Positions 583-60,279 of a stretch of DNA of 64,000 bases are shown one piece after another. The translations under genes were made by a program, and so were the position numbers. Position 1 is the stretch's first letter. Every line of letters starts with the position of its first letter. The DNA is from Siphonodentalium dalli (lineage: Eukaryota; Mollusca; Scaphopoda; Gadilida; Siphonodentaliidae). Below the pieces are notes generated by a model, which did no database searches, had not been told where the DNA came from, and saw nothing but the letters and a program-made list of their open reading frames with translations. Where the stretch lies: contig CP136068.1 of assembly GCA_032622095.1 (NCBI GenBank), positions 57,496,025 to 57,560,024 on the forward strand. The letters are read 5' to 3'.

Positions 583-2388
583 ACAACAAGAGCATCGCTA
601 GGGCGTGGCAAAATATGCCCTTCAGCCATTTTGAATTGTATTACCGCAAAATAAAATAATACTTTGAGCTTACATTTGAAGAAAATCGGATATACCCCTA
701 ATTTCAATGCCAAAATACGGTCAAATTCGAAGTCGAAAAATGGCCGTAACTCATGTAAAAATAATTAGACAGAACCTATATTCGAACTTGGCCTGTAGTT
801 TTAGCTGGGAAATACACATACCAGCTTTGGTTCAGATCAAATAACCAAAACTGGAGTTATCGGTCGGAAACCAAAATGTTATGAAATTGATCAAATTCTA
901 AGTCGAACGAGGGGCCGATCACGATCGGCAGATGTTAACCCATCCCTTGGCGATAGTAAATTACTATGATCGGAATCATAAATGAGAGTTTTGGTGTTGA
1001 ATTATAGAGTATACTGTTATGTACTATTATAGACAAATGTACATAACACTAATTATTGGAATTTATGGGTCACTCGCATTTATATAATAGAATGCACTGG
1101 CACAGGATCTGTAATGCTGCACCACCACAGCCTTGGGTTAAATGTGAAAGGCGACCTAGACATGGAATACTTGGGTTAAGAGAGTCTAATTTAAGTTTAC
1201 AATGATAATGTATCAAATTCTACCAACAATATAGATCAAGATAAGCCACCTCACTGCTGACCCATTAATATCAATTATATAGCAGAGCAGTCAACAAATC
1301 ACAGGAATTGTTTACGTTGAAAGCTGACATCTCTATTAAACTAATAACATTTATAATGACCTCAGACCATCTCTAGAGTGATATCTTCAGCTGTGCAAGG
1401 CAGCACAGATGTCCAAGTCTACTGTTAATATCATGTGATCTGTATTGTTGAATCTTTATTTTAAATTGGATACCATAGCTTTCTTAATCAGATTATCTGC
1501 ACATTGGCATAAGAGACATCAGAAAAAAATAGAGCGTTATCAATAGCTAAGTAGTCCAAAGGCATGGGATGGAATTGATGAACTGGATTTAATGTCGCTC
1601 CAAACAAATTAACCAGTACATAACACAAGATTTTGGAACGATTTAAACAAATTTGGTGTGGTCACTCGGGGTACCCTTGGCAGAGTTATAATGGTGTTAG
1701 TTTTTCAATTTTTTTTTTTTTTAAGAGTGAATATTTTTTTTTCGAAAAAATGCCATAACTCAGTTAAAAATAGTTGCATCAAACCCATATACGAACTCGA
1801 TCTGTCTTTTGTGCTGAGAAATATACAAAATTTGGTTCCGATCAGATAGAAAATATTTGAGTTATCGCACCATGGGTAAAGCGTCTACAGACAGACGGAC
1901 GGACGGACTAACGACGAGTGGTCAATCGGGACAACGACACTATGTTTACCATACTAAGGTATGGGTAAACATAAAAAGAGCCATAACTCATGTAAAAATC
2001 ATTGGATGGAACCTATATTCGAACTTGGCCTGTATCGTTAGCTGGGAAATACACAAACCAACTTTGGTTCAGATCAATTAATCCAAACTGGAGTTATCGG
2101 TCGGAAACCAAAAAATTTAACAGAATGGTAAAATTCTAAGTTGAAAAAGGGCCGTAACTCATGTAAAAATAATTGGACGAACCCATATTCGAACTTGGCC
2201 TGTATCTTTAGCTGCGAAATACACATACCAACTTTGGTTCAGATCAAATAATCCAAACTGGAGTTATCGATCGGAAACCAAAAATGTTAACGGACGGACG
2301 GACGCACGACAGATGGACAGACAGGCAGGCAGATGGACGGACAGACTGATAACATAATACAACCTTTTTTCAAAAGGGTGTATCAAAA
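583..2388 (+). mobile_element. Family C element, split by DEF1
   Basis: The left part is 583-908 and the right part 1973-2388. The 5' end (ACAACAAGAGCATCGCTAGG) matches the intact copy at 41271. The core repeats a unit containing CCATAACTCATGTAAAAAT, TTCGAACTTGGCCTGTA and CCAACTTTGGTTCAGATC. The 3' part has an ACGG/ACAG microsatellite, then CTGATAACATAATACAACC, a CCTTTTTT/AAAAGG hairpin and GGGTGTAT. The left part stops inside TTCTAAGTCGAA and the right part resumes with AAAAAGAGCCATAACTCATG, exactly as the intact core runs on. This was therefore one element before DEF1 inserted. It is non-coding. Confidence 0.75.
909..1972 (+). mobile_element. Family DEF element, complete copy
   Basis: The element starts with a palindrome (GCCGATCACGATCGGC) followed by ATGTTAACCCATCCC. 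It carries a core with CCAAAATTTGGTTCCGATC-type text, then (ACAG/ACGG)n, and ends in a hairpin, GTTTACCATAC / GTATGGGTAAAC, followed by ATAAAAA. The 5' motif ATGTTAACCCATCCC is complementary to the 3' GGTATGGGTAAACAT, so it has subterminal inverted repeats. It is inserted within an A-run of element C1. No coding capacity. The segment around 1085-1140 resembles MITE family I. Confidence 0.75.
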
Positions 2389-2394
2389 GTACAT

Positions 2395-2760
2395 TATTTC
2401 TAGATAAACAGAGAAGTACATGTATAACTCCAGAACTATTTTGAAAGCACTGCCAAAGCCAAACATCCTTATCAAATTTCCTTCAGATCCAATAAACCGT
2501 AGCTGAGATATCTGAGCGGACGGACATGTATCCAATATATTTCCAGATAAACAAAGAAGGATAATTGTAGAACGGAAAATGAGAACAATATCATTGGACC
2601 CTCTTTGGAAAGCAATCATTATGTGGAACCTCCATACCAAATTTCATTCAGATGCGATAACCCATGACTGAGATATATGCTAGGATGGCTAGACAAACAG
2701 ATGGACAAAGAAAATATACATCGAAAGGGTGGGAGTACAACAGTGAGTTGTGATACAGAA
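2395..2760 (+). repeat. Family Q core repeats
   Basis: Two degenerate ~150-bp units. Each contains a run such as CAATATATTTCCAGATAAAC, then AATATCATTGGACCCTCTTT, CCAAATTTCATTCAGATGCG, GACTGAGATATATG and a run of GGAC/GACAAACAGATGGAC. A related copy lies at 37795-38215. Non-coding; probably another tandem-core element whose ends I cannot define. Confidence 0.55.
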
Positions 2761-3379: not shown

Positions 3380-6300
3380 CAAGACAGTCAATGACAACAA
3401 GACAGTCAATGACTGTGGGTCGCTCACCAGACTCTGAAAACTATCTTTTAAAGAAGACAACCACACCACAGTACTAAGTTCACAAAAATCCTTTTGTACA
3501 TCCCTCTTTAATAGGTTGAATTTTACGACTGGTACAAGTACTTCAAGCTCTCAAACGTTTGAAAATTACCAACCTGACACCCCCCCATAAAGTTAAAATT
3601 TGTGGCCAATTTGGTCCAACAGTTTATCCTGAAGTAGGAACATATGGACTGATGGTTTAAAAACATACATGTTGGAAAATCAAACCAAACTATAAGAACA
3701 ATTCTAACCTATTTTTGGTGTGAATATCTAATCTACAACTAATGTAGTATCACGCATGAAATTTTCAACTGTTTAAATTTTGATCAAAGTAGGGGGTCAA
3801 ATATCCACCCCTCTACACTCCCTCCCCATTGCCTCAAACATTGCCCCCACCCAGGCTGCCTAGAAATCAATATTATTATACCAGTACCAAACAGCATAGA
3901 GAAGAGTTAAATCTCTTATCTCTGCCCCTATTAGAACAAATGTGAATCCCCATCTATGAGATCGATTCATCTAGTAATATCAATATACCCCCCAATATCC
4001 AATATACCCCCAATTTTTCTTTGAAAAATCAGGGTATGATTTCACCTGGATAAGTGGTGGTTAAGAAATAATATTGGAACAGCCAAGTCTGTATTTAGTG
4101 TGTCTGACATTTGCAGGTGAATTTAATGACACTATTCCGCAAGGTGGACTAGCATCACCGAATTCACCCTCTGGGGACCTCATTTCCTAAAAATAACCCC
4201 ATTTGAACAAATCTGAACCCCGGTCACCCAACACCCCTCCATACCAAATATAAGCTATATAGGCCCAATGGTTCTTGAGAAAAAAAATGTTTTAAGAATT
4301 ACTATGGAGGGAAAGAGTTATGGCCCTGGCTTCGCACCTATTTGATCTGATGAACTTATTTGAACAAATCTGATTGTGAGACACCTAGGGAACATGCACA
4401 CTGAAATATATAAACACATTCGGTCTTTAATATGGAGAAGAAAACAATTGTTGATAGACGGATGGATAGACATCCCAAGATTCCCAACAGGCAGACGGAT
4501 GGAAGCCTGACAGACATAAGACAAATTCAATCCAATATATACCCCCCAATTTTTCTTTGAAAAATCAGGGTATGATTTCATCTGGATAAGTGGTGGTTAA
4601 GAAAATAATATGAAACCGCCAAGCCTGAATTTAGTGTGTCTTACATTTGCAGAATGAGGTCCCCAAAATGTGAATTTAATTACACTATCCGCAAGGTGGG
4701 CTAGCATCACCGAATTCATCCTCAGTCTGATTAGGACTCAACGCCCAATAATGAAAGTGTCAATGACACTGTAGCTGAACTTAGGTAGGGGAATAATTTA
4801 ATGGTTGACAGTAAATGGAGGAATAGGAAAGGTGCTAATTGAAATGTCTAACCTAGCTGTGCCAAAGGATTTAGTCATGCAAAGAGTAAAATCCAAGATG
4901 GCTGCTGACGGCCATGTTTTTTGGCCGAATGACCCCAAAATGACTCGTTCCCATCTACATGTCAATATTACCATTCATGACAAATTTCATGATGATCAGA
5001 CGAATAGTACGACCTGTAGCCCGCGCCAATGGATTTAATTTGGAAATCCAAGATGGCCACTAACGGTCATGTTTTTTGGCCGAATGGCACCAAAATAACT
5101 CATTCCCATTTACATGTCAAGGTCAACAGCCATGGACAAATCTCATAATGATCTGACCAAAGATACGACATGTAGCCCGCGCCAAAGGATTTAGTCATGC
5201 AAAGAGTAAAATCCAAGATAGCTGCTGGCAGCCATGTTATTTGGCCGAACGACCCCAAAATGACTCGTCCCCATCTACATGTCAATATTAACATCAATGA
5301 CAAATTTCATGATTATCAGATGAATAGTACGACCTGTAGCCCGCACCAATGGATTTAATTTTGAAATCTTGTTTTTTGGCTGAATAACCCCAAAAGGACT
5401 CGTTCCCGTCTACATGTCATTGTTAACATCCATGACAAATTTCATGAAGTTCCGACCAAAGCTACGACCTGTAGCCCGCGCCAAAGGATTTAGTCATGTA
5501 AAGAGTAAAATCCAAGATGGTTGCTGGCAGCCATGTTTTTTGGCGGAATGACCTCAAAATGACTCGTTCCAATCTACATGTCATTGTTAACATCCATGAT
5601 AAACTTCATGAAGTTCCGACCAAAGCTACGACCTGTAGCCCGTGCCAAAGGATTTAGTCATGTAAAGAGTAAAATCCAAGATGGCTGCTGGCGGCCATGT
5701 TTTTTGGCCAAACAACCCCAAAATCACTCGTTCCCATCTACATGTCAATATTAACATCCATGACAAATTTCATGATGATCAGACGAACAGTACGACCTGT
5801 AGCCCGCGCCAATGGATTGAATTTTGAAATCCAAGATGGCCACCAGTGGCCATGTTTTTTGGCCAAATGACCCCAAAATGACTCGTTTCCCGTCTACATG
5901 TCATTGTTAACATCCATGACAAATTTCATGAAGATTCAACTAAAGCTACGACCTGCAGCCCGAGCCAAAGGATTTAGTCATGCGAAGAGTAAAATCCAAA
6001 ATGGCTGCTGGCGGCCATGTTTTTTGACAGAACGACCCCAAAATGACTCGTTCCCATCTACATGTCAATGTCAACATTCATGACAAATTTCATAAAGATC
6101 AGACCAAAGGTACGACCTGTAGCCCGCGCCAAAGGAAATTGTTGATGGACACACACAGACACACGACGACGGACGCCAACCCACGGCAATAGCTCAAACT
6201 TACAAAGTAAGTTGAGCTAAAACCAAGGATCAGATTGAAGTTCTACAGTTGAAGTTGGTGATGGACACCCATTGAGGACCTCAATTATGCATTTTATCTT

Positions 6301-7326
6301 CTGCAAATTAGGGGGACATTGAAACTGAACAGGTGTGAAAAAGTCAAAAAGTAACTAAAACAAAATTTCAATTTGATACTTAAGGATACTTCCCAGAAGA
6401 TGAGGCCTAAGCAGAATTAGGTCCCTGGAGGGTGTATTTGGTGATGCTAGCCTGCTGTACGGGGTAGCAACACTAAATTCACCCTCTGGGGATCTCATTC
6501 TGCAAATGTCAGACACACTATTTCCAGCCTTGAAGAAATCTAAGCCATTCACAGTACCATTGTATGGCAGGGAAACCAATTCCCATCAGCCATCACCTAA
6601 CCTTGGGAACAGCAGTTTGTTTTTAATTTGCTAGCAGTTATGTTTATACAAGCTTGCCAGATGACATCTATTATTCTAATCTAAATTAATTACCTGTGTC
6701 TTGCAAAGATATATCTGCTTCTGTGGTGAGAAGAGGTATTAAATTGGGAGATGATATGGGTTGGAAGGGACGTTGGTTGATGGCAGGGTGGGTGTGGGTC
6801 TGGGCCATTTTGGAGGGGGGATGGGTAATGGAATGTTTCCATAATTTCATTAAAGAGTAAAGTTTCATAACTCTGCAGATGTTATAATGGTGTAACTTTT
6901 TTCAAATTTGATAACATGTTTAAAAAATAATTTTTTTTTTGTTAAATTGAGCAAGGTCGCCCTGAAAATTCCAAAAATCTGAATTTAACATTTTTTTTTT
7001 TTTTAGTAATGTCACTGTCTCCGCCCACATTCGACCCAGTGACCTCATTTGAACAACTGAACCACAGTACCCCAAGGACCCTTTGTACCAAATATGAACC
7101 CATTCGGCCCAATGAAATTCGAGAAGTCGCTGCAAGAATTACTATGGTGGAAAAGAGTTATGGTCCTAGCTTCGCAACTAGTTGACCGGGTGACCTCATT
7201 TGAACAAATCTGAATGTGATTCACCTAGGGAACATCCACACCAAATATGAACCCATTCGGTCGTACGGACGACGGACGAGGAGTGATGACTATAGATCCA
7301 CCGGAGACTTCGTCTCAGGTGAGCTA
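3380..7326 (+). mobile_element. Family B element carrying a nested A element
   Basis: The 5' end has the palindrome ACAGTCAATGACTGT followed by TCGCTCACCAG; an 18-bp stretch of this end is duplicated (3380 and 3398). The 3' end is ACGGACGAGGAGTGATGACT, then the hairpin formed by AGATCCACCGGAGACTTCG and TCTCAGGTGAGCT, then AAAAA. Inside are ~160-bp cores with TTTGAACAAATCTGAA, ACCAAATATGAACCCATTCG and GAGTTATGGCCCT, an internal TATACCCC...GGGTATGAT hairpin, and the ~90-nt GAGGTCC/GGACCTC snapback units. Element A1 sits at 4751-6221. Short ORFs here are shadows. Confidence 0.8.
4751..6221 (+). mobile_element. Family A element A1, intact, nested in B1
   Basis: The 5' end is ATGAAAGTGTCAATGACACT (palindrome AGTGTCAATGACACT) followed by TAGCTGAACTTAGG. 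There are about eight tandem ~160-bp cores containing CCAAGATGGCTGCTGGCGG, TTTTTTGGCCGAATGACCCC, CATCTACATGTCAAT and TACGACCTGTAGCCCGCGCC. The 3' end has an ACAC/ACGG-rich stretch, the hairpin AGCTCAAACTTAC / GTAAGTTGAGCT, then AAAA. It interrupts B1 at a site readable as uninterrupted in the B3 and B4 copies (20275-20287). Non-coding. Confidence 0.85.
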
Positions 7327-7471: not shown

Positions 7472-8215
7472 AATGAAAGTGTCAATGACACTGTAGCTCA
7501 ACTTAGGTAGGGGAATAATTTAATGGTTGACAGTTAATGGAGGAATTAGGAAAGGAGCTAATTGAAATGTCTAAGTAAGACAAAATGTAAATGTGAAGAG
7601 AAACAAATACCCCAAAATGACTCGTTCCCATCTACATGTCAATATCAACATTCATGACAAGTTTCATAATGATCGGATCAGGGATGTGGTCTGTAGGGTG
7701 TGCCAAAGGATTTAGTGATGCAAAAAGTTAATTCTAAAATGGCCACCGGCGGCCATATTTTTTTGCCGAATGACCCCAAAATGACTCGTTCCCATCTACA
7801 TGTCAATGTCAACATCCATGACAAATTTCATGAATATCAAACAAACAGATCGGTCTATAACCCATGCTAATGGATTTTGTAGAAATATTTAGTCATACAA
7901 AGAGTAAAATCCAAAATGGCCATTGGTGACCATATAATTTTGCTGAATGACCCCAAAATGACGTGTTCCCATCAAGAGGTCACCCCGATGATCCATATGA
8001 AGTTTGCTGATGATCAGATCAGGGATGTGGTATGTAGGGTGTGTCAAAGTATTTAGTGATGCAAAGAGTAAAATTCAATATGGCTGCCGGCGGCCATGTT
8101 TTTTGGCCAAATGACCCCAAAATGACTCGTTCCCATCTAGAGGTCACCCCGATGATCCATATGAAGTTTGGTCAAAGGATTTAGTGATGCAAAGAGTAAA
8201 ATGCAAGATGGCCGC
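7472..8215 (+). mobile_element. Family A element A2, 3'-truncated
   Basis: It has the typical 5' end (AATGAAAGTGTCAATGACAC, then TAGCTCAACTTAGGTAGG) and four or so diverged cores. The cores carry a variant segment (GAGGTCACCCCGATGATCC) not seen in A1 or A3. Homology stops near 8215 with no microsatellite or 3' hairpin. Confidence 0.75.
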
Positions 8216-8882
8216 AATCGTTTTAAATGCAGCATGGCCTGGTCATTTGACATCTACTGTCCGACTCACTAGTAGTCCCTGTAGACTGTAATCTTGTAAG
8301 GATACTCGAGACATACATAAATCAGATGTCTGGGCACATTTCGTTCTGCTCGAAGGAAAAAAACAGAAATTTGCAGAATGCAAACTCTGTAGAACAAGAT
8401 TTTTATATGCAGGGTCTATACGTGTACTTCTAATATACCAAGTTTCTGAATTACACAAATAGGTCAACCGTTTCAGCACTACTGTAGCTTAGCTTATGAG
8501 TACCCACACTGTCATTGGTATGTGCACAACCATTTGCAATACGATTTGTCAACTTATATGTATTATTTGTCTAATACGTGAATTTTCGCCTTTTATATGC
8601 CCAATTTAATGGTAAAAAAAACAGGACATACTATGTTATTTGTCCATCTGTCCACGCGTTAATTACACAGACTAGTAAGTAGCCCTAATAAAAGAATTCA
8701 GAAAATCATAATATTAACTCTTTTCAGTCATAATTCCCAGCAAAATCATCTCCAGTTGTGTTCTAGCTATATATACTCTAAATTAGTGTGTAATATGGTC
8801 ATAATTTTCCCCATTTTCTACTTACGAAAAAATAAATAAATAAATAAAATAATTTCCCTACCTACCTACACAAAATAGTTTG

Positions 8883-10087: not shown

Positions 10088-12861
10088 CAAGACAGTCAAA
10101 GACTGTGGGGTCGCTCACCAGACTGCAAAGACTGATGAGACTGGGACTCTGGAGACCACAATAGTCAGAACTTTTCATAAGCACTTTGAAAAAAGTAGAT
10201 CTAAACACGAAATGTGGCTAGAGAGGCTTCAGTAGTGTACAGTGGGTAATTTCAAGGTGAATATCCACCATGAAATTGCCCACTGATCACCCCCCTCCTC
10301 CAGCTCAACAAGTCCCCTCCCAACCGGGCTCCAGACTCCCAAGTCTTGGGTTGGAATTTCACAACCGACATCTCAAACTTTCTCAATTTTTGGAAATTTC
10401 CAATCTCACAAGCACCTTTTTATAAAACCATTTAGACATGTTTGAAGCCCATTTATCCATGGACCCAAAACACCATACATGTATGTCAGATTAATCAGTT
10501 AGGTAGTTCCAAGGAAGATGTTTTAATGAATTTGGTATTTCAATGATTTTTTAAACACAAAATTGTTAACTCCCCATAGCCCCCCGTCATTTCTTAACAG
10601 GTTGACCTGATGTGAACAAATCTGAATATCAGTCACTAAAGGATCATCCATACTATATGTAAGCTAAATAGTCCAACCTCTCTTGAGAAGACAATTTAAG
10701 AATGACTATAGAGACATACAGTTATGTCCCTGGTCCCACCCTATTTAACCTGATGACCACATCTGAATAAATTTCAATACCAGACACCAAAGAACCCTTC
10801 ATACTAAATATCAGCAAAATAGACCTGTTAACATTTGTGGCGATTTCGGTCGAACAGTTTAACCCAAAGTAGGAAAATGTGGACTGTTACTGGTTGAAAA
10901 ATCAAATCTACAGCCTCATTGCCTCCACCCATGCAGCTTAGAAATCAATAGGAATCTATATATTATTATACCAGTATCAAACAGCATACATACAGGTAGG
11001 GTGGGTGGTTGAGAGTTAAATCTCTTATCTCTGCCCTTATTTGAACAAATGTGAATCCCCATCTATGAGATCTATTCATCTAGAAATTTCAAACGGTAGA
11101 TTTTAAGAGTTGAAGAAAACTGATTTTCCTCAAAAGTTTCCTAAAAATGACCTCACGTGTACAAATCTGAACCCCACTCACCAAAGAACCCTCCATACCA
11201 AAAGCTAAATAGGCCTGATGGTTTCTGAAGAATTACTATGGAGGGAAAGAGTTATGGCCCTGGCTTCTCACCTATATGACCTGATGAACTCATTTGAACA
11301 AATCTGAATGTGAGTCAAAATATATAAACCATTTCGGTCTTTAATATGTATGTGGAGAAGAACAAAATTGATAGACAAATTCAATCCAATATACCCCCCC
11401 CCCCAAGTTTTCTTTGCAAATCAGGGTATAATGAGTACAACTGGATAGGTGGTGGTTAAGAATATAATAGTGGAACAGCCAAGCCTGAATATAGTGTCTG
11501 ACTTTTGCAGAATGAGGTCACTAAAGGGTGAATTTAGTGCTGCAATCCTGTAAGGTGGGCTAGCATCACCAAATTCACCCTCTGTGGACCTCATTATGCT
11601 TGGGCCTCAACTGCCATGGGAGACATAGGAACAGATTGAAGTTGTCCAGTTAATTGGTGATGTGCACCCATTGGGCACTTCAATTATCAATTTTATCTTC
11701 TGACAGCAAATTAGGGAATATAGAAACTGAACAGAAGGGAAAAAGTAAGTAGAAATGTCAATTTAAGACCTGTATACTTCCCTGAAGATGAGGCCTAAGC
11801 AGAATGAGGTCCCTGGAGAGTGTATTTGGTGATGCTAGCCTACTGTGCAGAGTAGCATCACTAAATCCACCCTCTGGGGACCTCATTCTGCAAATGTCAG
11901 ACATACAGCATTTTGTTTTGATATGATATGTTAATGATACACACAGAGCATGACTGTTTACACCTAGCTGTCACCCAGCTAGATAACATCTGAATTGATG
12001 ACTGTTATTAACTCTTTCTGTCTGGGGCTAATACCATACTTTATGGATGTTACAAGGTGTCAGTTTTTCTAATAAATTTTTTCTTGACTGCAGTGGGTGC
12101 AGGGCTACGCAGATGGGGGGGGGGGGGGTGGTAGTGGGGACAGGGGTGTAGAGGGGTGAGGAGGGAAAGGGGTGGAATGGGGTGTTTTGTGTCTAAAAAA
12201 ATACAAAAAATCAGGGGTTAAAATGAAAAAAAATATTTTTGTATTGGTTCATTTTGAATTGTGATTTGTTTTTTGAATTGAGCAAGGATTTAAATTTTTT
12301 TTTTTTTTTTAAGTTATGTTCCTGACATGGCCCCTATTTGACACACTGACCCCATTTGAACAAATCTGAACCCCAGTCACACAAGGACCCACCATACAAA
12401 ATATTAGCTAAATCGGCCTGATGATTCTGGAGAAGAAGTCATTCTAATAATTACTAGGGAGAATAGAGTTATGTCCCTGATTCTGCCCCTATTTGACCCA
12501 GTGACCCCATTTGAACAAATCTGACCCCCAGTCACTCAAGGACCTTCCATACCAAATATAAGCTAAATAGGCCTGATTGTTCTTGAAAAGAAGTTGTTTT
12601 AAGAATTACTATGGCGGGATAGAGTTATGGCCCTAGCTTCGCAACTATTTGACTCAGTGACCTTATTTTAACAAATCTGAGTCTGAGTCAAGCAGGGAAC
12701 ATCCACACCAAATATGAACTCATTTGGCCTTATGATACTGGAGAAGAAGATGATTGTTGACGGACGGACGGACGGACGGACGGACGGACAGACGGTCAGA
12801 CGGACGACGGACGAGGAGTGATGACTATAGCTCCACCGGAGACTTCGTCTCAGGTGAGCTA
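10088..12861 (+). mobile_element. Family B element B2, both ends present
   Basis: The 5' end is CAAGACAGTCAAAGACTGTG with TCGCTCACCAG. The 3' end is GACGGACGAGGAGTGATGAC, the AGCTCCACC...GGTGAGCT hairpin, then AATAA. It holds cores with GAGTTATGGCCCTGG, the TATACCCC...GGGTATA hairpin near 11390-11430, two snapback hairpins (11506-11598 and 11797-11892) and a (GGAC)n tract. Confidence 0.8.
12759..12813 (+). repeat. (GGAC)n microsatellite of B2
   Basis: About seven uninterrupted CGGA units followed by imperfect GACGGTCAGACGGACGACGG. It is the tetranucleotide tract that precedes the 3' hairpin in this family. Confidence 0.95.
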
Positions 12862-13825
12862 ATAACAAAAAGAGAACATAACAAAATAGATCAACTACTG
12901 ACTATTTTTATTGCCCCCAAATTTGGCTAATTGATCATTATTGTTTAAACAATAGCCACATGTAAAAAATGTACAGCTTGCACAATATTTACAAACAATG
13001 GATATAGAATTTCGAGAATTTTATAATTTGATGTGAAATAAATGGTGAATATATGTTTGTGTCATTCTATATTATTGCTTTATCTCTGTTCATGGTTTGT
13101 TTGTGCTTGTCAAATTTTAGAACTCATCACCAATACTTCAATAAGCTGACTCAAGTAGAATATTGTTTGGCTGCAGGAGATTCCCACCAAGTGGCTGAAA
13201 TGTTAACAACACTTGTGCCTAGACATAACTAGCAATAATACCTTACTCAATAGTCTGGATTTCTTTAAATTTCACACTATCCGCTCAAAGTGTATACAAT
13301 AAATTACATGATATATATAAAGGCGTGTATCTAGAGGCAATATTGAACTACCACATGTGAAGAATATCATATAACTGTGTGATTACAAAACTTGTCATTA
13401 AACATTTGGAATTTAATATATAATAGATCAGATGGAATTGAGCCAGCAGTAATATTTGGTCTACTGCACTTGTGCTCTCTTACATACCTACATGGGGTAT
13501 GCCTGTAGGGCATGCACCAAGAATACTATGTGTGACACACTGAAGGCCAGCCAGTGAATAGTGGCACCTGCACAATGAACACTCACGACAAAAACTGGCC
13601 ATGTTAGAGACTAATAATCATACCATATTACACCCCAGGCAGGTCAGGCGACACTGCTGGTCTCTCCCACAAAAAAAACCAGGCAAGTGCTTCTGTCTCA
13701 TCATCAGGAGCTGAGACATTTCTAGTTCGAAATATACTGTCACAAGGCCATTAACCAACTTACATAATTTTTAAAATGGAAGGTTTTTATATTAAGATAT
13801 TAGATATTAGTTGTTTCATAGCTAT

Positions 13826-15313: not shown

Positions 15314-15321
15314 TCAATGAT

Positions 15322-16436: not shown

Positions 16437-16444
16437 TCAATGAT

Positions 16445-18414: not shown

Positions 18415-21400
18415 CAAGACAGTCAATGACTGTGGGGTCGCTCACCAGACTGCAAAGACTGATAAGACTGGGACTCAGGAGACCACAACAGTCAGAACTT
18501 TTCATAATCACTTTAAAAGAAGTAGATATCTAAAGAGTTAAATCTAAAACAAAAAATTTGGAGTTATGTCCCTGGCCCCGCCCACATTTGACCCAGTGAC
18601 CTGATTCATACCAAATATGAACCCATATAGCCTGATGGTATTTGAGAAGAAGTCACTTTAAGAATACTATGGAGGGAAAGAGTTATGGCCCTGGCTTCGC
18701 AACTATTTCAAGTGAACTCATTTGAACAAATCTGAATGTGAGTCACCTAGGGAACATCCACACCAAATATGAAACCATTCGGTCTTATTGTTCTGAAGAT
18801 GTTTAAAAGAATTACTATGGTGGGAAAGAGTTATGGCCCTGGCTTCGCAACTATTTGACCCAGTGACCGCATTTGAACAAATCTGAATGAGAATCACCTA
18901 GGGAACATCCACACCAAATATGAACCCATTTGGTCTTATGGTTCCAGAGGAGAAGATGTTCAAATAATTGTTGTCGGACGGATGGACGGACAGACGATGG
19001 ACGGACGAGGAGTGACGACTATAGCTCCACCGGAGCACGTGTAGGGTGGCTGGTTGGTAATTAAATCTCTTATCTCCGCCCCTATTTGAACAAACGTGAA
19101 TCCCCATCTATGAGATCCATTCATTTGGTAATTTCAGACATTAGATTTTAAGAGTTGAACTGAACTGATTTTCCTAAAATGACCCCAAATCTGAAAAAAT
19201 CTAAACCCCAGTCACCGAAGGACCATCCATACCAAACATAATCTAAATAGTCCAGATGGTTCTGGAGAAGAAATTGTTTTAAGAATTACTATGGAAGGAA
19301 AGAGTTATGGCCCTGACTTCTCACCTATTTGACCTGATGAACTCATTTGAACAAATCTGAATGTGAGTCACCTGGGGGACATCCACACCTAAATATATAA
19401 ACCCATTTGGTCTTTAATATGTATCTGGAGAAGAAAACAATTGATGGACGGATAGAGACATAATGACAGATGGATGGATGGGAGAACAGTCTGACATAGA
19501 GACTGACAAATTCAATCCAATATACCCCCCCCCCAAGTTTTCTTTGCAAAATCAGGGTATAATGAGTTCAACTGGATACTGGTGGTTAAGAACATAATAT
19601 TCGAACAGACAAGCCTGAACAAATTGACTGACATTTGCAGAATGAGGTCCCCAAAGGGTGAATTTAATGACACAATCCTGCAATGTGGGCTAGCATCACC
19701 AAATTCACCCTCTGGGGACCTCATTCTGTGTAGGCCTCAACTGCTATGGGAGACATAGCATTAGATTGAAGTTCTCCAGTTAAAGTTGGTGATGTGCACC
19801 CATTGGGCACCTCAATTATGCATTTTATATTCACAAATTAGGGGATATAGAAACTAAACAGAAGGGCAAAAGTAAGTAAAAATGTCAATTTAAGTGCCTA
19901 TATACTTCCCAGAAGATGAGGCCTAAGCAGAATGAGGACCCTGGCTAGTGTATTTGGTGATGCTAGACTGCTGTGCAGGGTAGCATAACTAAATTCACCC
20001 TCTGGGGACCTCATTCTGCAAATGCCAGATAGAAGACAAATTTAATCCAATATATACCCCCCCCCCCCCCCCCCCCATTTTTCTTTGAATATTAGTCGTA
20101 TGATTTCATCTGGATAATTGGTGATTAAAACAATAATATGAAATGGCCAAACCTGAATTTAGTATGTCTGACATTTGCAGAATTAGGTCCCAAAAATGTG
20201 GATTTAATGACAATATTCTGTAAGGCAGGCTAGCATCACCAAATTCATCCTCAATCTGATTAGGCCTCAATGGCCAATAAAACCAAGGAACAGATTGAAG
20301 TCCTACAGTTGAAGTTGGTGATACACACCCATTGAGCACCTCAATTATGCATTTTATCTTCTGCAAATTAGGGGGACATTGAAACTGAACAGGTGGAAAA
20401 AAGTTACTAAATCAATGAAGTCCTACAGTTGAAGTTGGTGATACACACCCATTGAGCACCTCAATTATGCATTTTATCTTCTGCAAATTAGGGGGACATT
20501 GAAACTGAACAGGTGGAAAAAGTGACTAAATCAAACTGTCAATTTGATACTTAGGATACTTCCCAGAAGATGAGGACTAAGCAGAATTAGGTCCCTGGCG
20601 GGTGTATTTGGTGATGCTAGCATGCTGTATGGGGTAGCAACACTAAATTCACCACCTGGGGACCTCACTATGTAAATGTCAGACACACTATTTCCAGACT
20701 TGAAGAAATCAAAGCCATTCACAGTATCATTGAATGTCAGTCATCACCTAACATTGAATGGAAGCACCAGTTTGTTGTTAAATTGCTACAGATATGTTTA
20801 GATTAGAATAATACATGTCATCTGGCCAGTTTATATAATTAATGACCTGTACCTTTACAGATATATATGTCTTGTAATGACAGATGGTAAACTGGTCTGA
20901 AGCAAGCAGTATTCAGCAAGAGGATCGGGTGACCACACTATGATAAATTGGCTTTTTCAATAATACAGGCTTGAGTGTCCTCTTAAAAATTAATAGTGCA
21001 TAGCAAAGGGGTGTGAATTATAAAGGGCCATAACTCTGTTAAAATATATCGGATCAAACCCATATTTTAACTTGATCTGTATATAAGTGTCAAAAATTCA
21101 TATACCAAATTTGGTGTTGATCAGATGAAAAATGTTTGAGTAATCCTGTCTTGGATGAATTCTATATCAAAACAAGAGTGGAAGGGGTTAAATAAACAAT
21201 ACCAAAATCCATACAGATGAAGCACATGCTAAGAAAAATCTAGGTAAGGAATATGAGGCTGTGATGTGTCCTAAACAAAAATTAAAGGTAAAAATGCAAA
21301 AATTAAATTTTTTGTTTTTAAAGTTATGTCCCTGGCTCTGCCCCTATTTGACCCAGTGACCCCATTTGAACAAATCTGAACCCCAGTCACCCAAGGTATC

Positions 21401-28746: not shown

Positions 28747-28748
28747 AA

Positions 28749-41270: not shown

Positions 41271-41976
41271 ACAACAGCATCGCTAGGGAGTGGCAAAATA
41301 CGCCCTTTAGCCATTTCGAATTGTACTATCGCAAAATAAGATAATACTTTGAGCTTACATTTGAAGAAAATCTGATATACCCCTAATTTCAATGCCAAAA
41401 TGTGGTAAAATTCTAAGTCTGAAAATGGCCATAACTCATGTAATAATAATTAGAAAGAACCTATATTCAAACTTGGCCTGTAGTTTTAGCTGGGAAATAC
41501 ACATACCAGCTTTGGTTCAGCTCAAATAATCAAAACTGGAGTTATTGGTCGGAAACCAAAATGTTATGAAATTGGTCAAATTCTAAGTTGAAAAAATATG
41601 TAAAAATAACTGGACGGAACCCGTATTCGAACTTGGCCTGTATCTTTAGCTGGGAAATACACATACCAACTTTGCTTCAGATCAAATAATCCAAACTGGA
41701 GTTATCAGTCGGAAACCAAAATGTTAACAGACGGTCAAATTCTAAGTCGAAAAAGGGCCGTAACTCATGTAAAAATAATTGGACGGAACCCATATTCGAA
41801 CTTGGCCTGTATCTTTAGCTGGGAAATACACATACCAACTTTGGTTCATATCAAATAATCCAAACTGGAGTTATCGATTGGAAACCAAAAATGTTAACGG
41901 ACGGACAGACAGATGGTGCGGCGGACGGACGGACGGACTGATAACATAATACGACCTTTTTTCAAAAAGGGCGTAT
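41271..41976 (+). mobile_element. Family C element C2, intact
   Basis: 5' end ACAACAGCATCGCTAGGG with AAAATACGCCCTTT. Three to four ~150-bp cores (TAACTCATGTAAAAATAA, TTCGAACTTGGCCTGTA and CAAACTGGAGTTATC). Then an ACGG tract, CTGATAACATAATACGACC, and a CCTTTTTT...AAAAAGG hairpin followed by GCGTATAAAAAAG. The 5' ATACGCCCTTT is complementary to the 3' AAAGGGCGTAT. Confidence 0.8.
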
Positions 41977-44051: not shown

Positions 44052-44662
44052 CAAGACAGTCAATGACTGTGGGTCGTTCACCAGACTGTATGGACTCTGA
44101 AGACTACAAGAGTCAGTACTTGACAAAATCACTTAAGACAAGTAGTTCTAAACATGGACATAGCTGGATGTTCTCAGATGAGCAGGGCTCTTCACCTTGA
44201 AATTTCTAATTGCACATCACTGACAAATCTCCAACCTCTTACCTTTTAAAGAGGACAACCATACCACAGTACTAAAGTTCACAAAAATCCTTTTGTACAT
44301 TCCTCTTAGGTTGAATTTTACGACTGGTACCAGTACTTCAAGCTCTCAAACGTTTGATAATTACCAACCTGACACCCCCCATAAAGTTAAAATTTGTGGC
44401 GAATTCGGTCCAACAGTTTAACCTGAAGTAGGAACATATGGACTGATGGTTTAAAAACATACATGTTAGAAAATCAAACCAAACTACGAGAACAATTCTA
44501 ACTTATTTTTGGTGTGAACATCTAATCTACAACTAATGAAGTATCAGGCATGAAATTTTCAACTGTTTAACTTTTGATCAAAGTAGGGGGTCAAATCTCC
44601 ACCCCTCTACACTACTTCCCCATTGCCTACAACATTGCCCCCACCTAGGCTGTCTAGAAATT
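44052..44662 (+). mobile_element. Family B fragment B8, 3'-truncated
   Basis: 5' end CAAGACAGTCAATGACTGTG with TCGTTCACCAG. The text parallels 3398-3870 of B1, including ACACCCCCCATAAAGTTAAA and the AGGCTGTCTAGAAAT stretch, where homology stops. Confidence 0.75.
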
Positions 44663-45028: not shown

Positions 45029-48000
45029 AATGAAAGTGTCAATGACACTGTAGCTCAACTTAGGTAGGGGAATAATTTAATGGTTGACAGTAAATGGAGG
45101 AATAGGAAAGGTGCTAATTGAAATGTCTAACATGCGCCAAAGGATTTAGTGATGCAAAGAGTAAAATACAAGATGGCTGCTGGTGGCCATTTTTTTTGGC
45201 CAATTGACCCCAAAAGAACTCGTTCCCATCTACGTATAATTGTTAACATCCATGACAAATTTTATGAAGATCTGACCAAAGCTACGACATACAAATTTCA
45301 TGATGATCAGACGAACAGTACGACCTGTAGACCGCGCCAATGGATTGAATTTTGAAATCCAAGATGGCCGCTGGCAGCCATGTTGCTGCCATGTTTTTTG
45401 GCCGAATGACCCCACAATGATTCGTTCCCATCTACATGTCAATGTCAACATTCATGACAAATTTAATAAATATCAGACCAAAGGTATGACCTGTAGCCCA
45501 CGCCAAAGGATTTAGTCATGCAAAAAGTAAAATGCTGGTGGCAATGTTTTTTGACCGAATGACCCCAAAACGACTCGTTCCCATCTACATGTCATTGTTA
45601 TAATTAATGACAAATTTCATGACCATTTGACCAAAGCTACGACCTGTAGCCCGCACCAAAGGATTTAGTCATGCAAAGAGTAAAATCCAAGATGGCTGCT
45701 GGCGGCCATGTTTTTTGACCAAATGACCCCAAAACGACTCGATCCCATCTACATGTCATTGTTATCATTCATGACAAATTTCATGATGATCAGACTAACA
45801 GTACAACCTGTAGCCCGCGCCAATGGATTGAATTTTGAAATCCAAGATGGCCGCCAGCAGCCATGTTTTTTGGCCGAATGACCCGACAATGATTCGTTCC
45901 CATTTACATGTCAATGTCAACGTTCATGACAAATTTTATAAAGATTAGACCAAAGGCAACCTATAGCCCGCGCCAAAGGATTTAGTCATGCAAAGAGTAA
46001 AATCCAAAATGGCTGCTGGCGGCCATGTTTTTTGGCCGAACGACTCCAAAATCACTCGTTCCCATCTACATGTCAGTGTTAACATCCATGACAAATTTCA
46101 TAAACTTCCGACCAACACAACGACCTGTAGCCCGCGCCAAAGGATTTAGTCATGCAAAGAGTAAAATCCAAGATGGCTGCTGGCAGCCATGTTTTTTGGC
46201 CGAACGACCCCAAAATCACTCGTTCCATCTACATGTCATTATTAACATCAATGACAAATTTCATGATGATCAGACGAACAGTACGACCTGTAGCCCGCGC
46301 CAATGGATTGAATCTTGAAATCCAAGATGGCTGCCAGCGGCCATGTTTTTTGGCCGAATGACCCCAAAATTACTCGTTCCCATCTACATGTCAATGTCAA
46401 CATTCATGACAAATTTCATAAAGATCAGACCAAAGGTACGACCTGTAGCCCGCGCCAAAGGATTTAGTCATGCAAAGAGTAAAATACAAGATGGCTGCTG
46501 GCGGCCATGTTTTTTGGCCGAACGACACCAAAATCACTCGTTCCCATCTACATGTCATTGTTAACATCCATGACAAATTTCATGATGTTCCGATCAAAGC
46601 TACGACCTGTAGCCCGCGCCAAAGGATTTAGTCATGCAAAGAGTAAAATCCAAGATGACTGCTGGCGGCCATGTTTATTGGCCGAACGACCCCAAAATGA
46701 CTCGTTCCCATCTACATGTCAATATTAACATCCATGACAAATTTCATGATGATCAGACGAACAGTACGACCTGTAGCCCGCGCCAATGGATTGAATTTTG
46801 AAATCTAAGATGGCCGCCAGCGGCCATGTTTTTTGGCCGAATGACCCCACAATGATTCGTTCCCATCTACATGTCAATGTCAACATTCATGACAAATTTC
46901 ATAAAGATTAGACCAAAGGTACAACCTGTAGCCCGCGCCAAAGGATTTAGTCATGCAAAGAGTAAAATCCAAGATGGCTGCTGGCGGCCATGTTTTTTGG
47001 CCGAACGACACCAAAATCACTTGTTGCCATCTACATGTCATTATTAACATCAATGACAAATTTCATGATGATCAGGCGAACAGTACGATCTGTAGCCCGC
47101 GCCAATGGATTGAATCTTGAAATCCAAGATGGCTGCCAGGGGCCATGTTTTTAGGCCGAATGACCCCAAAATGACTCGTTCCCATCTACATGTCAATGTC
47201 AACATTCATGACAAATTTCATAAAGATCAGACCAAAGGTACGACCTGTAGCCCGGGCCAAAGGATTTAGTCATGCAAAGAGTAAAATCCAAGATGGCTGC
47301 TGGCGGCCATGTTTTTCGGCCGAACGACCCCAAAATCACTCGTTCCCATCTACATGTCATTGTTAACATCCATGACAAATTTCATGATGTTCCGATCGAA
47401 GCTACGACCTGTAGCCCGCGCCAAAGGATTTAGTCATGCAAAGAGTAAAATCCAAGATGGCTGCTGGTGGCCATGTTTATTGGCCGAACAACCCCAAAAC
47501 GACTCGTTCCCATCTACATGTCAATATTAACATCCATGACAAATTTCATGATGATCAGACGAACAGTACGACCTGTAGCCCGCGCCAATGGATTGAATCT
47601 TGAAATCCAAGATGGCTGCCAGCGGCCATGTTTTTTGGCAGAATGACCCCAAAATGACTCGTTCCCATCTACATGTCAATGTCAACATTCATGACAAATT
47701 TCATAAATATCAGACCAAAGGTACGACCTGTAGCCCGGGCCAAAGGATTTAGTCATGCAAAGAGTAAAATCCAAGATGGCTGCTGGCGGCCATGTTTTTC
47801 GGCCGAACGACCCCAAAATCACTCGTTCCCATCTACATGTCATTGTTAACATCCATGACCAATTTCATGATGTTCCGATCGAAGCTACGACCTGTAGCCC
47901 GCGCCAAAGGATTTAGTCATGCAAAGAGTAAAATCCAAGATGGCTGCTGGTGGCCATGTTTATTGGCCGAACAACCCCAAAATGACTCGTTCCCATCTAC

Positions 48001-48806
48001 ATGTCAATATTAACATCCATGACAAATTTCATGATGATCAGACGAACAGTACGACCTGTAGCCCGCGCCAATGGATTGAATTTTGAAATCTAAGATGGCC
48101 ACCAGCGGCCATGTTTTTCGGCCGAATGACCCCACATTGATTCGTTCCCATCTACATGTCAATGTCAACATTCATGACAAATTTCATAAAGATTAGACCA
48201 AAGGTACAACCTGTAGCCCGCGCCAAAGGATTTAGTCATGCAAAGAGTAAAATCCAAGATGGCTGCTGGTGGCCATGTTTTTTGGCCGAACAACTCCAAA
48301 ATCACTCGTTCCCATCTACATGACAGTGTTTAATAACATCCATGACAAATTTCATAAACTTCCGACCAAAACAACGACCTGTAGCCCGCGCCAAAGGATT
48401 TAGTCATGCAAAGAGTAAAATCCAAGATGGCTGCTGGCAGCCATGTTTTTTGGCCGAACGACCCCAAAATCACTCGTTCCCATCTACATGTCATTATTAA
48501 CATCAATGACAAATTTCATGATGATCAGATGAACAGTACGACCTGTAGGCCGCGCCAATGGATTGAATCTTGAAATCCAAGATGGCTGCCAGCGGCCATG
48601 TTTTTTGGCCGAATGACCCAAAAATGACTCGTTCCTATCTACATGTCAATGTCAACATTCATGACAAATTTCATGAAGATCAGACCAAAGGTACAACCTG
48701 TAGCCCGCGCCAAAGGAAATTGTTGACGGACACACGGACACACGCACACACGAACACACGCACACACGGACACACATGCACCCATATATAACTGTTGGAC
48801 TAAAAA
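45029..48806 (+). mobile_element. Family A element A3, long satellite array
   Basis: Standard 5' end (AATGAAAGTGTCAATGACAC, then TAGCTCAACTTAGGTAGG). About 22 cores of 155-163 bp follow, in two alternating types: one with CCAAAGGATTTAGTCATGC, the other with CCAATGGATTGAATCTTG. The 3' side has an ACAC/ACGG-rich tract and a decayed hairpin end (ACTGTTGGACTAAAAA). From about 47100 to 48550 the units form a 483-bp higher-order repeat. Many overlapping ORFs of about 73 codons arise from the period and are not genes. Confidence 0.85.
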
Positions 48807-50442: not shown

Positions 50443-50553
<111 letters not shown>

Positions 50554-50563: not shown

Positions 50564-50645
50564 CAAGACAGTCAATGACTGTGGGGTCACCGGACTGTAA
50601 AGACGGAAAAGAATGGGACTCTGAAGACTACAATAGTCAGTACGT
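50564..50645 (+). mobile_element. Family B fragment B9 next to an exon
   Basis: CAAGACAGTCAATGACTGTG, GTCACCGGACTGTAAAGACG and CTGAAGACTACAATAGTCAG match the first 80-90 bp of family B. Everything downstream is missing. It begins 26 bp from the kinase exon, so the intron branch-point region is probably within or beside it. Confidence 0.75.
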
Positions 50646-50907
50646 TGTTATATTGAATTTACATGTCTTCTTTATTAAGTTCCATTGAATATTGTAAAAG
50701 TGACCTGTGGTCTAATATTGTTGTCTTATAAGAATGTCTAATTGAATGCATTAATAGTCAAGCCATAGTTCTGAATATAATGCCACAAAACAAGATTTTC
50801 AGTGCTTGTAATTACTAGCTAAATTCTGAAATCGAAGTATGATCCACTGAAATTAAAGTAACTTATATGAGGTTTTTTGAGAATTGAACCAATTAAGTAA
50901 CTCATAT

Positions 50908-53103: not shown

Positions 53104-53160
53104 GGAAAGTGCCAATGACACTTAACCTGGAGAGGGGATAATTACGTACATTACAGTAAA
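53104..53160 (+). mobile_element. Relic 5' end of a family A element
   Basis: AAAGTGCCAATGACACTTAA, then GGGGATAATTACG and ACAGTAAATG: the A 5' end with several substitutions and no core following. Confidence 0.5.
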
Positions 53161-54275: not shown

Positions 54276-55000
54276 AATGAAAGTGTCAATGACACTGTAG
54301 CTCAACTTAGGTAGGAGAATAATTTAATGGTCGACAGTAAATGGAGGAATAGGAAAGGTGCTAATTGAAATGTCTAATTAAGACAAGATGTACATGTCGA
54401 TATCAACATTCATGACAAGTTTTATAATCATCGGATCAGGGATGAGGTGATTATGGTGTGCCAAAGGATTTAGTGATGCAAAGAGTAAATTCTAAAAAAA
54501 TTCCGAATTACCTCAAAATGACTCATTCCCATCTATGTACATGTCAATGTCAACAGTCTTTACAAATCTCATAATGATCTGACCAAAGGTAAGACCTGTA
54601 GCCTGTGCCAAAGGATTTAGTCAAATCCAAGATGGCTGCTGGCGGCCATGTTTTTAGGCCGAATGACCCCAAAAGGACTCGTTCCCATCTACATGCCATT
54701 GTTAACATCCATAACACATTTCATGATCAGATGAACAGTACGACCTGTAGCCCGCGCCAATGGATTGAATTTTTAAATCCAAGATGGCTGCCATCGGCCA
54801 TGTTTTTTTGGCCAAATGACCCCAAAATGACTCGTTCCCATATACATGTCAAAGTCAATATTCATGACAAATTTCATAAAGATTAGACCAAAGGTACGAC
54901 CTGTAGCCCGCGCCAAAGGATTTAGTCATGCAAAGAGTAAAATCCAAGATGGCTGCTGGCGACCATGTTTTTCGGCCAAACGACCCCAAAATGACTCGTT
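54276..55000 (+). mobile_element. Family A element A4, 3'-truncated
   Basis: 5' end AATGAAAGTGTCAATGACAC and TAGCTCAACTTAGGTAGG, then about four cores; homology is lost after AAAATGACTCGTT near 55000. Confidence 0.8.
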
Positions 55001-56883: not shown

Positions 56884-57231
56884 CTGGAAAAGGTTAGTGC
56901 ATGCATGGTTGATATGCAAGGGCACAGAACAATGTGTTGATCTGAATGTAGTTTTCAAAATTTTCCCTTTAACTCCCCAGACTCTGAGATCCCGTTCTCC
57001 CACCTATGAGACGTTGTGCTGCCCACCATATTTTAGCCTATATTCTTGGTTGCCCCCACCCCCCCCCCTCTTCTCAAGATTTATAGAACCACCACTGTGA
57101 ATAAACTGGCTCGCAAGGTAAAGGTAAATATTGTTACATCAATGTACTTTTATACATGTTGAGGCATCCTATGGGCGACTTGTATATATGAGAGATTGAA
57201 TTGACACATGGTTAGGGAGCCTCCCATATAT

Positions 57232-58675
57232 AACCTGTAGCCCATCCTAACATTGAATTTTGAAAGATGGCTGTAGGTGGCCATGTTATTTTTGCCAAAT
57301 GACCACCAAATGCCTCGTTCCCATCTACATATGTAGTCAATGTCAACAGCCATTACAAACTTCATAATTATCCGACCAAAGGTAGGACCTGTAGCCCGTG
57401 CCAAAGGATTTACTAGTAGCCAAAGAGTAAAATCCAAGATGGCTACTGGCAGCCAATATTAACATCCATGACCTGTAGCCCGCGCCAATGGATTGAATTT
57501 TGAAATCTAAGATGGCAGCCAGGGTCCATGTTTTTTGGCCAAATGACCCCAAAATGATTCGTTCCCATCTACATGTCAATGTCAACATTCATGACAAATT
57601 TCATAAAGATTAGACCAAAGGTACGATCTGTACCCCACGCCAAAGGATTTAGTCATGCAAAGAGTAAAATCCAAGATGGCTGCTGGCGGCCATGTTTTTT
57701 GGCCAAACAATTCCAAAATCACTCGTTCCTATCTACATGTCAGTGTTAACATCTAAGACAAATTTCATAAAGTTCCGACCAACGCAACGATCTGTAGCCC
57801 GCGCCAAAGTATTTAGTCATGCAAAGAGTAAAATCCAAGATGGCTGCTGGCGGCCATATTTTTTGGCCGAACGACCCCAAAATGAATTGTTCCCATCTAC
57901 ATGTCAATATTAACATCCACGCCAAATTTCATGATGATCAGACAAACAGTATGACCTGTAGCCCGCGCCAATGGATTGAATTTTGAAATCTAAGATGGCC
58001 GCCAGCGTCCATGTTTTTGGCCAAATGACCCCAAAATGATTCGTTCCCATCTACATGTCAATGTCAACATTCATGACAAATTTCATAAATATTAGACCAA
58101 AGGTACGACCTGTAGCCCGCGCCAAAGGATTTACTCATGCAAAGATGGCTGCTGGCGGCCATGTTTTTTGGCCAAACGATTCCAAAATCACTCGTTCCCA
58201 TCTACATGTCAGTGTTAACATCCAAGACAAATTTCATAAACTTCCGACTAACGCAACGACCTGTAGCCCGCGCCAAACGATTTAGTCATGCAAAGAGTAA
58301 AATCCAAGATGGCTGCTGGCGGCCATGTTTTTTGTCCGAACGACCCCAAAATGACTAGTTCCCATCTACATGTCAATATTAACATCCATGACAAATTTCA
58401 AGATGATCAGACGAACAGTACGACCTGTAGCCCGCGCCAATGGATTGAATCATGAAATCCAAGATGGCTGCCAGCGGCCATGTTTTTTGGTGAAATGACC
58501 CCAAAATGACTACATGTCAATGTCAACATTCATGACAAATTTCAAAAAGATCAAACCAAAGGTACGACCTGTAGCCCGCGCCAAAGGAAATTGTTGACAG
58601 ACACACGGACACACGGACGACGGACAACAAACCATGGCAATAGCTCAAACTTACAAAAGTAAGTTGAGCTAAAAA
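57232..58675 (+). mobile_element. Family A element A5, 5'-truncated
   Basis: Eight or nine cores, then CACACGGACGACGG and the complete 3' hairpin AGCTCAAACTTAC / GTAAGTTGAGCT followed by AAAAA. The canonical 5' end is absent; the left flank resembles MITE I (TAGGGAGCCTCCCATATATA). Confidence 0.8.
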
Positions 58676-58729
58676 TGTTGATCCCAACTCTATATATGCC
58701 ATATACACCTAAGGCCATTTATTGATTGG

Positions 58730-60279
58730 TCAAACCCATTTTAACAAATCTGTAACCCAGTCCCAAGTAACACAAGGACCCTCCATACTAGTTACTACAT
58801 ATAAGCTGATGGCTCTTGAGGAGGGGCCATTTTAAGAATTACTATGGGGAAGAGTTATGTCCCTGGTCGCACCCCTATTTGACCTGGTGAACCTATTTCA
58901 ACAAATCTGAATCCCAGTCACCCAAGGACTCTCTATACCAAAATGTATGCTAAATATGCCAAATGGTTCTTGAGAAGATGTTTTAAAAATAACCAATGAG
59001 GGAAAGAATTATGTCCGTGGCTCTGACCCTATTTGACCCAGTGATCCAATTCTGAATCAATTCTGAATCCTAGTCACCCATACCAAATATAAACGGAACA
59101 GGTCTGATGGTTCTTGATAGGAAGACATTTTAAGAATTACAATGGATGGACAGGTTATGTCCCTGGCTCCGCCCTTATTTGACCAGGTGACCTCATTTTA
59201 ACACATATGTATCCCTGTCACACAAGGACCTTCCATACGAATTATAAGCTAAATAGCCCCGATGATTCTTGAGAAGATGTTTTAAGAATTACTATGGATG
59301 GAAATAGTTAGGTCCCTAGCTATGCAACTTTTTTGACCATGTGACCCCCATTTGAACAGAAAACTGAATCCCAGCCACCTAGGGACCATCCACACAAAAT
59401 ATGTCTCAATTCTTCATCTCAGGTAAGCCAAGAAAAATGCCTCCTTCTTTCTCATCCAGTTTCCCCATATGTAATTGCCTGAGTTACTGGCCTAACTGTC
59501 AGATTCATCATTCACACTTGGCCTTGGGAGTTTGTTATCATAAGCCATATGTCATTTATATACAAACTCTCTAACAGGCAGATCATTTTAGGGTATTAAT
59601 CAATGGAGCTGTCATTCCAATCAGATTTTGTTAAAACTGCCATTTCATTTATTACTTTACAATCAATGTGACTTCTAAATGGTGTTAAGTAAACATTCTG
59701 TGATAGCAGCCACCTTCCTCATATCTCATAGAGCTCTGAGTATCTGCTGTTTGCATGTTCTTGATTTTAGACTGATTTAATAGAGCAAGAAATGAATCTC
59801 AATTAAAATTAAAAAAATGATAAGTTTTTTTTATCAATTTTTTTTTTTTTTCTTGTTAAATTGAACAATATTTGTTTTTGTTTTTTGTATGAGTTGTGTC
59901 CCTGACTCTGCCCCTATTTGACCCAGTGACCCCATTTGAACAAATCTTAACCCCAGTCACCCAAGGACCCTCCATACCAAATGTAACCTATAGTTCCAAT
60001 AGTTCTTGAGAAGAAGTCATTCTAAGACTTACTATGGAGGAATAGAGTTATGGCCCTGCTTTCGCAACTATTTGACCCAGTTACCTCATTCGAACAAATC
60101 TGAATGTGAGTCACCTAGGGAACATCCACACCAAATATGAACCCATTCGGTCTCATGGTTCCGAAGATGTTTAAAGAATTGTTGACGGACGGATGGACGA
60201 ACGGACAGACAGACGGACGGACAGACGGACGAGGAGTGATGACTATAGCTCCACCAGATACTCAGTCTCAGGTGAACTA
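58730..60279 (+). mobile_element. Family B fragment B10, 5'-truncated
   Basis: Seven or so cores (GAGTTATGTCCCTGG, TTTGACCCAGTGACC and ACCAAATATGAACCCATTCG). A decayed 3'-like end near 59400-59430 (CATCTCAGGTAAGCC) is followed by more cores, (GGAC)n and a final hairpin with CTCAGTCTCAGGTGAACT and AAAAA. Possibly two fragments in tandem. Confidence 0.7.

Follow-up and report, generated by a model that had tools for sequence, protein, structure and literature searches.

What are the repeats that crowd a 64,000-nt window (the whole stretch of DNA analysed here) of contig CP136068.1 from the scaphopod Siphonodentalium dalli, and why do all recognised copies run one way? The element features span positions 588-60279, and a first-pass annotation had seen in them several sequence-unrelated families with one terminal architecture, likened to that of Helentron-associated elements. 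The repeats are, with little doubt, degraded minus-strand copies of non-autonomous Helentron / Helitron2 elements (HINEs) belonging to four families or more (A, B, C and D, the last called DEF in that annotation), and the earlier assignment was well judged.

Read on the minus strand, the elements have a common layout: a flanking TTTT precedes a 5' subterminal repeat that folds with a complement lying just downstream of it; a GTCC-type microsatellite and tandem repeats come next, and on the 3' side the subterminal repeat recurs ahead of a palindrome and TT. In family A the order is TTTT / TAGCTCAACTTAC..GTAAGTTTGAGCTA / GTCC-type tract / cores / TAAGTTGAGCTA / AGTGTCATTGACACT / TTCA / TT; families B and C are ordered like family A, and family D likewise but without a firm palindrome. 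The 3' subterminal repeat of A, B and C is succeeded by the 3' palindrome and then by a tail of 4-6 nt. This strand was chosen because published definitions of the class place the hairpin (a subterminal inverted repeat, subTIR, plus an inverted repeat, IR) at the 5' end and the palindrome at the 3' end; by those definitions the polarity first proposed was backwards, its "3' hairpin" being the 5' end and its "5' palindrome" the 3' palindrome. The ACGG/ACAG tracts, subterminal complements, tandem cores and the A-runs beyond the hairpin, as previously remarked, are directly visible in the sequence.

Ends were detected with 12 nhmmer profiles, built from window copies and run on both strands. In families A, B and C the palindrome tail gives way to TT in 12 of 13 copies, and at positions -1 to -4 of the 15 full 5' ends, in which all four families are represented, the fraction of T is 0.80, 0.93, 0.93 and 0.87, dropping just beyond -4 to 0.33 (strand average 0.326). 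Two nested insertions can be compared with empty sites. The site occupied by A1 in B1 is present as uninterrupted CCAATAAAACCAAGG in B3 (~20280) and B4 (~26880), and that occupied by C1 in D1 as an intact A-run in D units at 2131, 41578 and 41737, one of these within D1 itself. Target duplication is absent at both, insertion having occurred in an A/T-run, and the A/T letters at the joint are ambiguous by one or two, an ambiguity also described in the available part of PMC4067079. The ends of A and C coincide in these comparisons with hairpin and palindrome; the contrary outcome that the first-pass annotation had envisaged, ends lying off these structures, was not found for these two families. 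Those of B and D, for which the window offers no empty site, are provisionally placed by the T-runs flanking the window copies. At the 5' end the match between the asymmetric terminal inverted repeats (ATIRs) begins at nt 1, 3, 2 and 1 in A, B, C and D, within the 0-2 bp given for Helitron2, and the 3' ATIR lies 20, 25, 23 and 23 nt from the 3' end, within the 20-30 bp given.

Several other classes may be weighed against these ends. Canonical Helitrons (Helitron1) were rejected, as the families have neither 5'-TC nor CTRR-3' ends and no A-T insertion site: the 5' ends read TAGCTC.., TATG.. and ATAC.., the 3' ends ..TTCA, ..CTTG, ..CTCA and ..CTG, and the flanks are TTTT and TT. That the elements are non-coding, with inverted repeats near both ends, would also suit miniature inverted-repeat transposable elements (MITEs), cut and pasted by a DDE transposase and bearing subterminal inverted repeats, as in an earlier description of DINE-1 (classed as a MITE, in the portion available, by a 2008 paper, PMC2374699). 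However, the repeats here are placed asymmetrically, at 0-2 nt from one end and 20-25 nt from the other, the ends are structurally unlike, and the two empty-site comparisons lack a target duplication; we consider such an origin very improbable. Several copies consist largely of tandem units, about 20 in A3, as would be expected of dispersed satellite arrays with ends alike by chance or recombination and no transposition unit. Yet a whole unit is found inserted in another element, with its empty site, and the 3' ends of the 5 A copies and of the 6 B copies are near-identical despite different flanks, A4 and B2 each departing by one palindrome letter; to this explanation we attach practically no weight.

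The terminal structures themselves were compared with shuffled sequence, and palindromes with no more than 2 mismatches were counted on either strand. The family A palindrome, AGTGTCAATGACACT, occurs at 5 sites (4 exact, one with a single mismatch) and that of family B, ACAGTCAATGACTGT, at 6 (5 exact, one with a single mismatch); the total matches were 10 against a shuffle mean of 0.26 and 12 against 0.14, respectively, with a shuffle maximum of 2. A third palindrome, GCCGATCATGATCGGC, is found at 914 (one mismatch) and 24715, giving 2 matches where 0.00 were expected. The first two were therefore real as annotated, but the third, the GCCGATC palindrome, had been given to DEF (an assignment that we read from the order of the annotation's lists), whereas it adjoins ATGTTAACCCATCCC at 914-946 and 24715-24750 and belongs to family C; family D carries ATACGCCCTTT (588-2384, 41275-41976), and its end is GCATCGCTAGGGMGTGGC. 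When each end was folded and compared with 200 shuffles, the 5' hairpins, folded from nt 1, were equalled by none of the 200 in all four families, and the 3' hairpins of A, B and C by 9, 6 and 4. The complementarity of 5' and 3' repeats was scored against a null of 1500 random window pairs, real repeats included (maximum 40). It is strong in A, C and D (24, 24 and 22), scores of 24 and 22 being reached by 3 and 4 random pairs. In the 3' palindrome, 2 of 6 pairs differ between A and B with both sides changed and 100% of pairs retained, against 17-50% in slid controls: pairing is kept while the letters change.

Several observations weigh against this assignment or against particular parts of it. 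The repeat match of B (15) is weak and, since 35 of the 1500 random pairs reach 16 and 128 reach 14, not significant alone; moreover, the B 5' repeat fits the A 3' repeat equally well (16, the highest of the 12 cross-family pairs, followed by the C 5' with the D 3' repeat at 13 and the rest at 10 or less). The 3' hairpin of D is weak in D1 (7 of 200 shuffles as good) and absent in D2 (86 of 200), a difference from Helitron2, and no hairpin is recognisable by eye at the 5' end of A3. The 3' flank of B4 is TA, not TT. The covariation between A and B is essentially one contrast, with 4 distinct rows of 11, and its score is matched by 15 of 500 shuffles. In mites, the subTIRs of HINEs are 38-60 bp from the 3' end (PMC4067079, as far as available), compared with 20-25 here. 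Finally, no Rep/helicase was found among the 30 of 551 window open reading frames (at least 45 codons) that were scanned against Pfam; curated cut-offs were passed by a kinase reading frame only (Pkinase, PK_Tyr_Ser-Thr), and the remaining matches, below those cut-offs, were taken as chance.

The extent to which the families are related differs between ends and cores. The tandem cores have periods mostly of 147-170 bp, with one row of 135. Those of C and D align with a score of 231, shuffles attaining at most 53, while the A core is not clearly above shuffles when compared with B, C or D (best A-C, 6 of 300). Between the B core and the reverse strand of the D1 unit the match is borderline: 2 of 300 shuffles reach it, or 0 of 300 when a second B unit is used. 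One core common to all families is not supported, clear alignment being confined to C-D. A and B have in common the 5' end TTTTTAGCTCA and, in the 3' palindrome, TCATTGA on the minus strand, the shared palindrome centre that had been noticed at the outset. Given these shared A-B ends and C-D cores, the description of the families as sequence-unrelated is apt for A/B versus C/D, and for the cores of A and B, but not for the A/B termini or the C/D cores.

By analogy with known families, a Rep/helicase encoded elsewhere would nick at the T-run, and rolling-circle replication would displace one strand; the 3' palindrome would be the stopping point of replication, and pairing of the 3' with the 5' subterminal repeat may occur there; the displaced strand would then be joined to a T-run elsewhere. 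In this process the tandem repeats probably act as passengers. One enzyme might, as the first-pass annotation supposed, recognise the structure of the ends and not their sequence; that such terminal pairing matters is an idea already put forward in PMC3627910. The four families are additions to the known HINE class, whose design, one architecture in unrelated families, is already published (PMC7492417, PMC3627910, PMC4067079; these papers are drawn on here through the parts of them available). In Crassostrea gigas, 11 elements termed Cg_HINE have this layout, and four of them (5, 7, 8 and 9) do so with modules unrelated mutually and to the rest (PMC7492417). Like the window families, to judge by description, they combine subTIR, IR, a microsatellite (GTCY, GTCC or GTCK) and satellite-like tandem repeats with a 3' subTIR and palindrome, and insert in T-rich sequence without duplication; a difference is that their microsatellite is 10-500 bp from the repeats, whereas that of the window families looks close to them. 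Pearl elements of bivalves, with short arrays of ~160-bp central repeats, are now categorised as non-autonomous Helentrons (same source) and resemble the window families, by description, in their ~160-bp repeat layout. The HINE / DINE-1 elements described in the accessible sections of PMC4067079 and PMC2374699 are similar in their subTIRs, central repeats, 3' palindrome and TT or T-rich, unmodified target, so that this end design is on record for flies as well as oysters. In the available text of PMC3627910 (2013), the same end geometry is the mark of Helitron2, with the 3' ATIR 20-30 bp from the 3' end (20-25 here), compensatory changes are noted between two related elements, pairing of the two repeats is proposed to end replication, and Helitron-1N1_CRe inserts after TTTT.

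Searches elsewhere gave little. Pattern scans of viral contigs for element copies returned 0 matches, and a distant-mode search of phages, made with element A3 alone, no match. A 17-base end motif was found in 11 bacterial stretches among genome contigs, which we take as chance because blastn of the window against all 11 yielded a single 24-base match. A full-text literature search with five end motifs gave no transposon paper, by title, among the matches listed. The 2013 paper on Helitron2 is reportedly the work of Bao and Jurka.

Table 1. Element copies and host exons in the window. Limits are partly approximate; profile matches are named by family and side.
Feature	Description	Positions	Strand	Profile matches and remarks
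SIK exon	SIK-like kinase exon, downstream end of host intron	69..230	-	
D1	Family D, holds C1	588..2384	-	D_left 589-704, D_right 2281-2385
C1	Family C, nested in A-run of D1	909..1973	-	Intact D units
B1	Family B, split by A1	3398..7326	-	B_left 3398-3461, B_right 7257-7330
A1	Family A, nested in B1	4752..6220	-	Empty sites in B3, B4
A2	Family A, 3' end intact, 5' end not found, right limit approximate	7474..8245	-	A_left 7474-7588
B2	Family B	10088..12863	-	B_left 10088-10181, B_right 12766-12865
B3	Family B, internal partial 5' end 18969-19035	18415..21851	-	
C2	Family C, split by B4 and an unclassified piece (28751-30877)	24708..31239	-	C_left 24709-24864, C_right 31139-31240; compared with C1 by eye
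B4	Family B, nested in C2	25007..28746	-	
C3	Family C, 5' end only, left limit approximate	31240..32064	-	C_right 31957-32065
B5, B6, B7	Family B 5' ends at 33902, 34254 and 36124, left limits approximate	32400..36124	-	B_right
D2	Family D, both ends	41275..41976	-	D_left 41274-41389, D_right 41888-41977
B8	Family B, 3' part, right limit approximate	44052..44660	-	B_left 44052-44129
A3	Family A, ~20 core units	45031..48800	-	A_left 45031-45137; TRF 19.8 copies of 164 bp
SIK exon	SIK-like kinase exon (21 residues + G), upstream end of intron	50475..50538	-	
B9	Family B, 3' end only, right limit approximate	50564..50680	-	B_left 50564-50649
A4	Degenerate family A 3' end (AGTGCCAATGACACT)	53104..53160	-	One mismatch; beyond A_left profile
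A5	Family A, 3' end intact, 5' end not found, right limit approximate	54278..55000	-	A_left 54278-54390
A6	Family A, 5' end intact, left limit approximate	57230..58671	-	A_right 58551-58673
B11	Family B, 5' end intact	59830..60279	-	B_right 60182-60283, self-matches

Some copies have a more complex constitution. B3 and B4, which are 95.5% identical over 2,033 aligned bases, each carry part of a further B 5' end in their interior (in B4 at 25598-25663) and therefore look composite. Segments of ~100 bp are repeated in B elements with mutual matches on both strands, foldback-like by eye, at 4500-4740, 6395-6532, 19505-20700, 26119-27660, 32535-32881 and 34896-35160, and a degenerate B-like stretch (about 58790-59430) precedes B11 by coordinate. 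The unclassified piece within C2 starts with ACCCGTCGTCTGTGTG, contains two near-identical copies of ~360 bp, by eye, and ends in a CCCGTCATTTTGTGACGGG hairpin followed by CAACCCCCTAG. We take this end to resemble the 3' end of a canonical Helitron, but the next base is A, not T. Possibly the G or H of the first-pass annotation is a tandem repeat of 122 bp (2.7 copies) with an AGAC tract after it, at 36267-36750; G and H are given no coordinates in that observation, and two candidates for them (about 36240-36790 and 28751-30877) showed no 7-bp inverted match between their ends. Other repeats in the window are a unit at 15314-16443 lying between inverted arrays of a 16-bp repeat (GGCTCATACGGACCCT / GGTCCGTATAAGCCAG), and a large inverted repeat (60764-61717 / 62097-63058), whose arms of about 960 bp are 81% identical and about 380 bp apart.

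Most of these elements lie within a gene. For both kinase exons of Table 1 the best match among solved structures is SIK3, and as they are in frame when joined, the 50,244 bp between them constitute one intron, roughly half of which is covered by HINE intervals (set by hand). The profiles detected 14 3' ends (4 A, 6 B, 2 C, 2 D) and 15 full 5' ends (2 A, 8 B, 3 C, 2 D), all in the same orientation, with which the degenerate A end at 53104 agrees, bringing the 3' ends to 15 of 15; the intron holds 12 of these and 13 of the 5' ends, and the polarity of the HINEs is the direction of SIK transcription. The 12 profiles gave no end match on the opposite strand, the sole minus match being a weak core match within the A3 array (E = 3e-4). 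Among self-match pairs at least 2 kb apart within HINE intervals, 63 of 781 are minus-strand, and these seem, to judge by their coordinates, to lie in the foldback-like segments inside B elements.

What the single orientation signifies is best treated as a lead only, coming as it does from one locus and recognised post hoc. Chance, with tandem growth of some copies, is a serious contender, if short of an even bet: several B and C 5' ends are closely successive, and B5-B7, possibly tandem within a run of B sequence, are perhaps not independent. Against it, the three nested pairs are concordant, and the 14 profile-detected 3' ends alone give a two-sided p = 1.2e-4, a value that assumes independent insertions and was computed after the pattern was noticed. 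Another explanation, possible though doubtful, would have random insertion followed by selection in the SIK intron against the opposite orientation, through splice or poly(A) signals. The concentration of ends in this one intron would suit it, as would donor motifs that are rarer in HINEs on the sense strand (5 vs 13, crude counts), but loose acceptor motifs (35 vs 8) and poly(A) signals (46 vs 36) are commoner on that strand; simple motif counts, crude as they are, leave such selection unsupported as the cause.

Alternatively, orientation may have been set at insertion, by preferred joining to a strand transiently single-stranded, either as lagging-strand template or as exposed by SIK transcription. 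The uniformity of all 15 3' and all 15 full 5' ends, and the p value above if insertions were independent, favor this, as do the remaining dispersed repeat matches in the window, which are mixed (6 direct, 10 inverted), albeit pieces of fewer repeats and hence not independent; in bacteria, IS200/IS605 elements track fork direction (PMC5371812, in the part available). The single locus and post hoc recognition count against it, as do the possibly tandem state of B5-B7 and C2-C3 and the occurrence of Cg_HINE in both orientations genome-wide (PMC7492417), and we judge it unlikely. Less probable again, in our estimation, is the specific proposal that Helentrons insert coherently with respect to strand across tens of kilobases: families arriving in succession and nesting in each other would all have entered the SIK region in one orientation, their single-stranded intermediate being joined each time to the same exposed strand (lagging-strand template or transcription bubble), for which the strand-directed insertion described for IS200/IS605 offers a likeness. 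Maize Helitrons are reported, in the accessible text of PMC3288121, to insert preferentially close to each other; published orientation runs of Helitrons were not found in the literature searched, most subscription papers being outside its reach. Were strand-coherent insertion true, the orientation of HINEs in animal genomes would preserve a fossil trace of fork direction or transcription, and the orientation run, if it proved genome-wide, would offer a direct test of the target strand used by a eukaryotic rolling-circle transposon.

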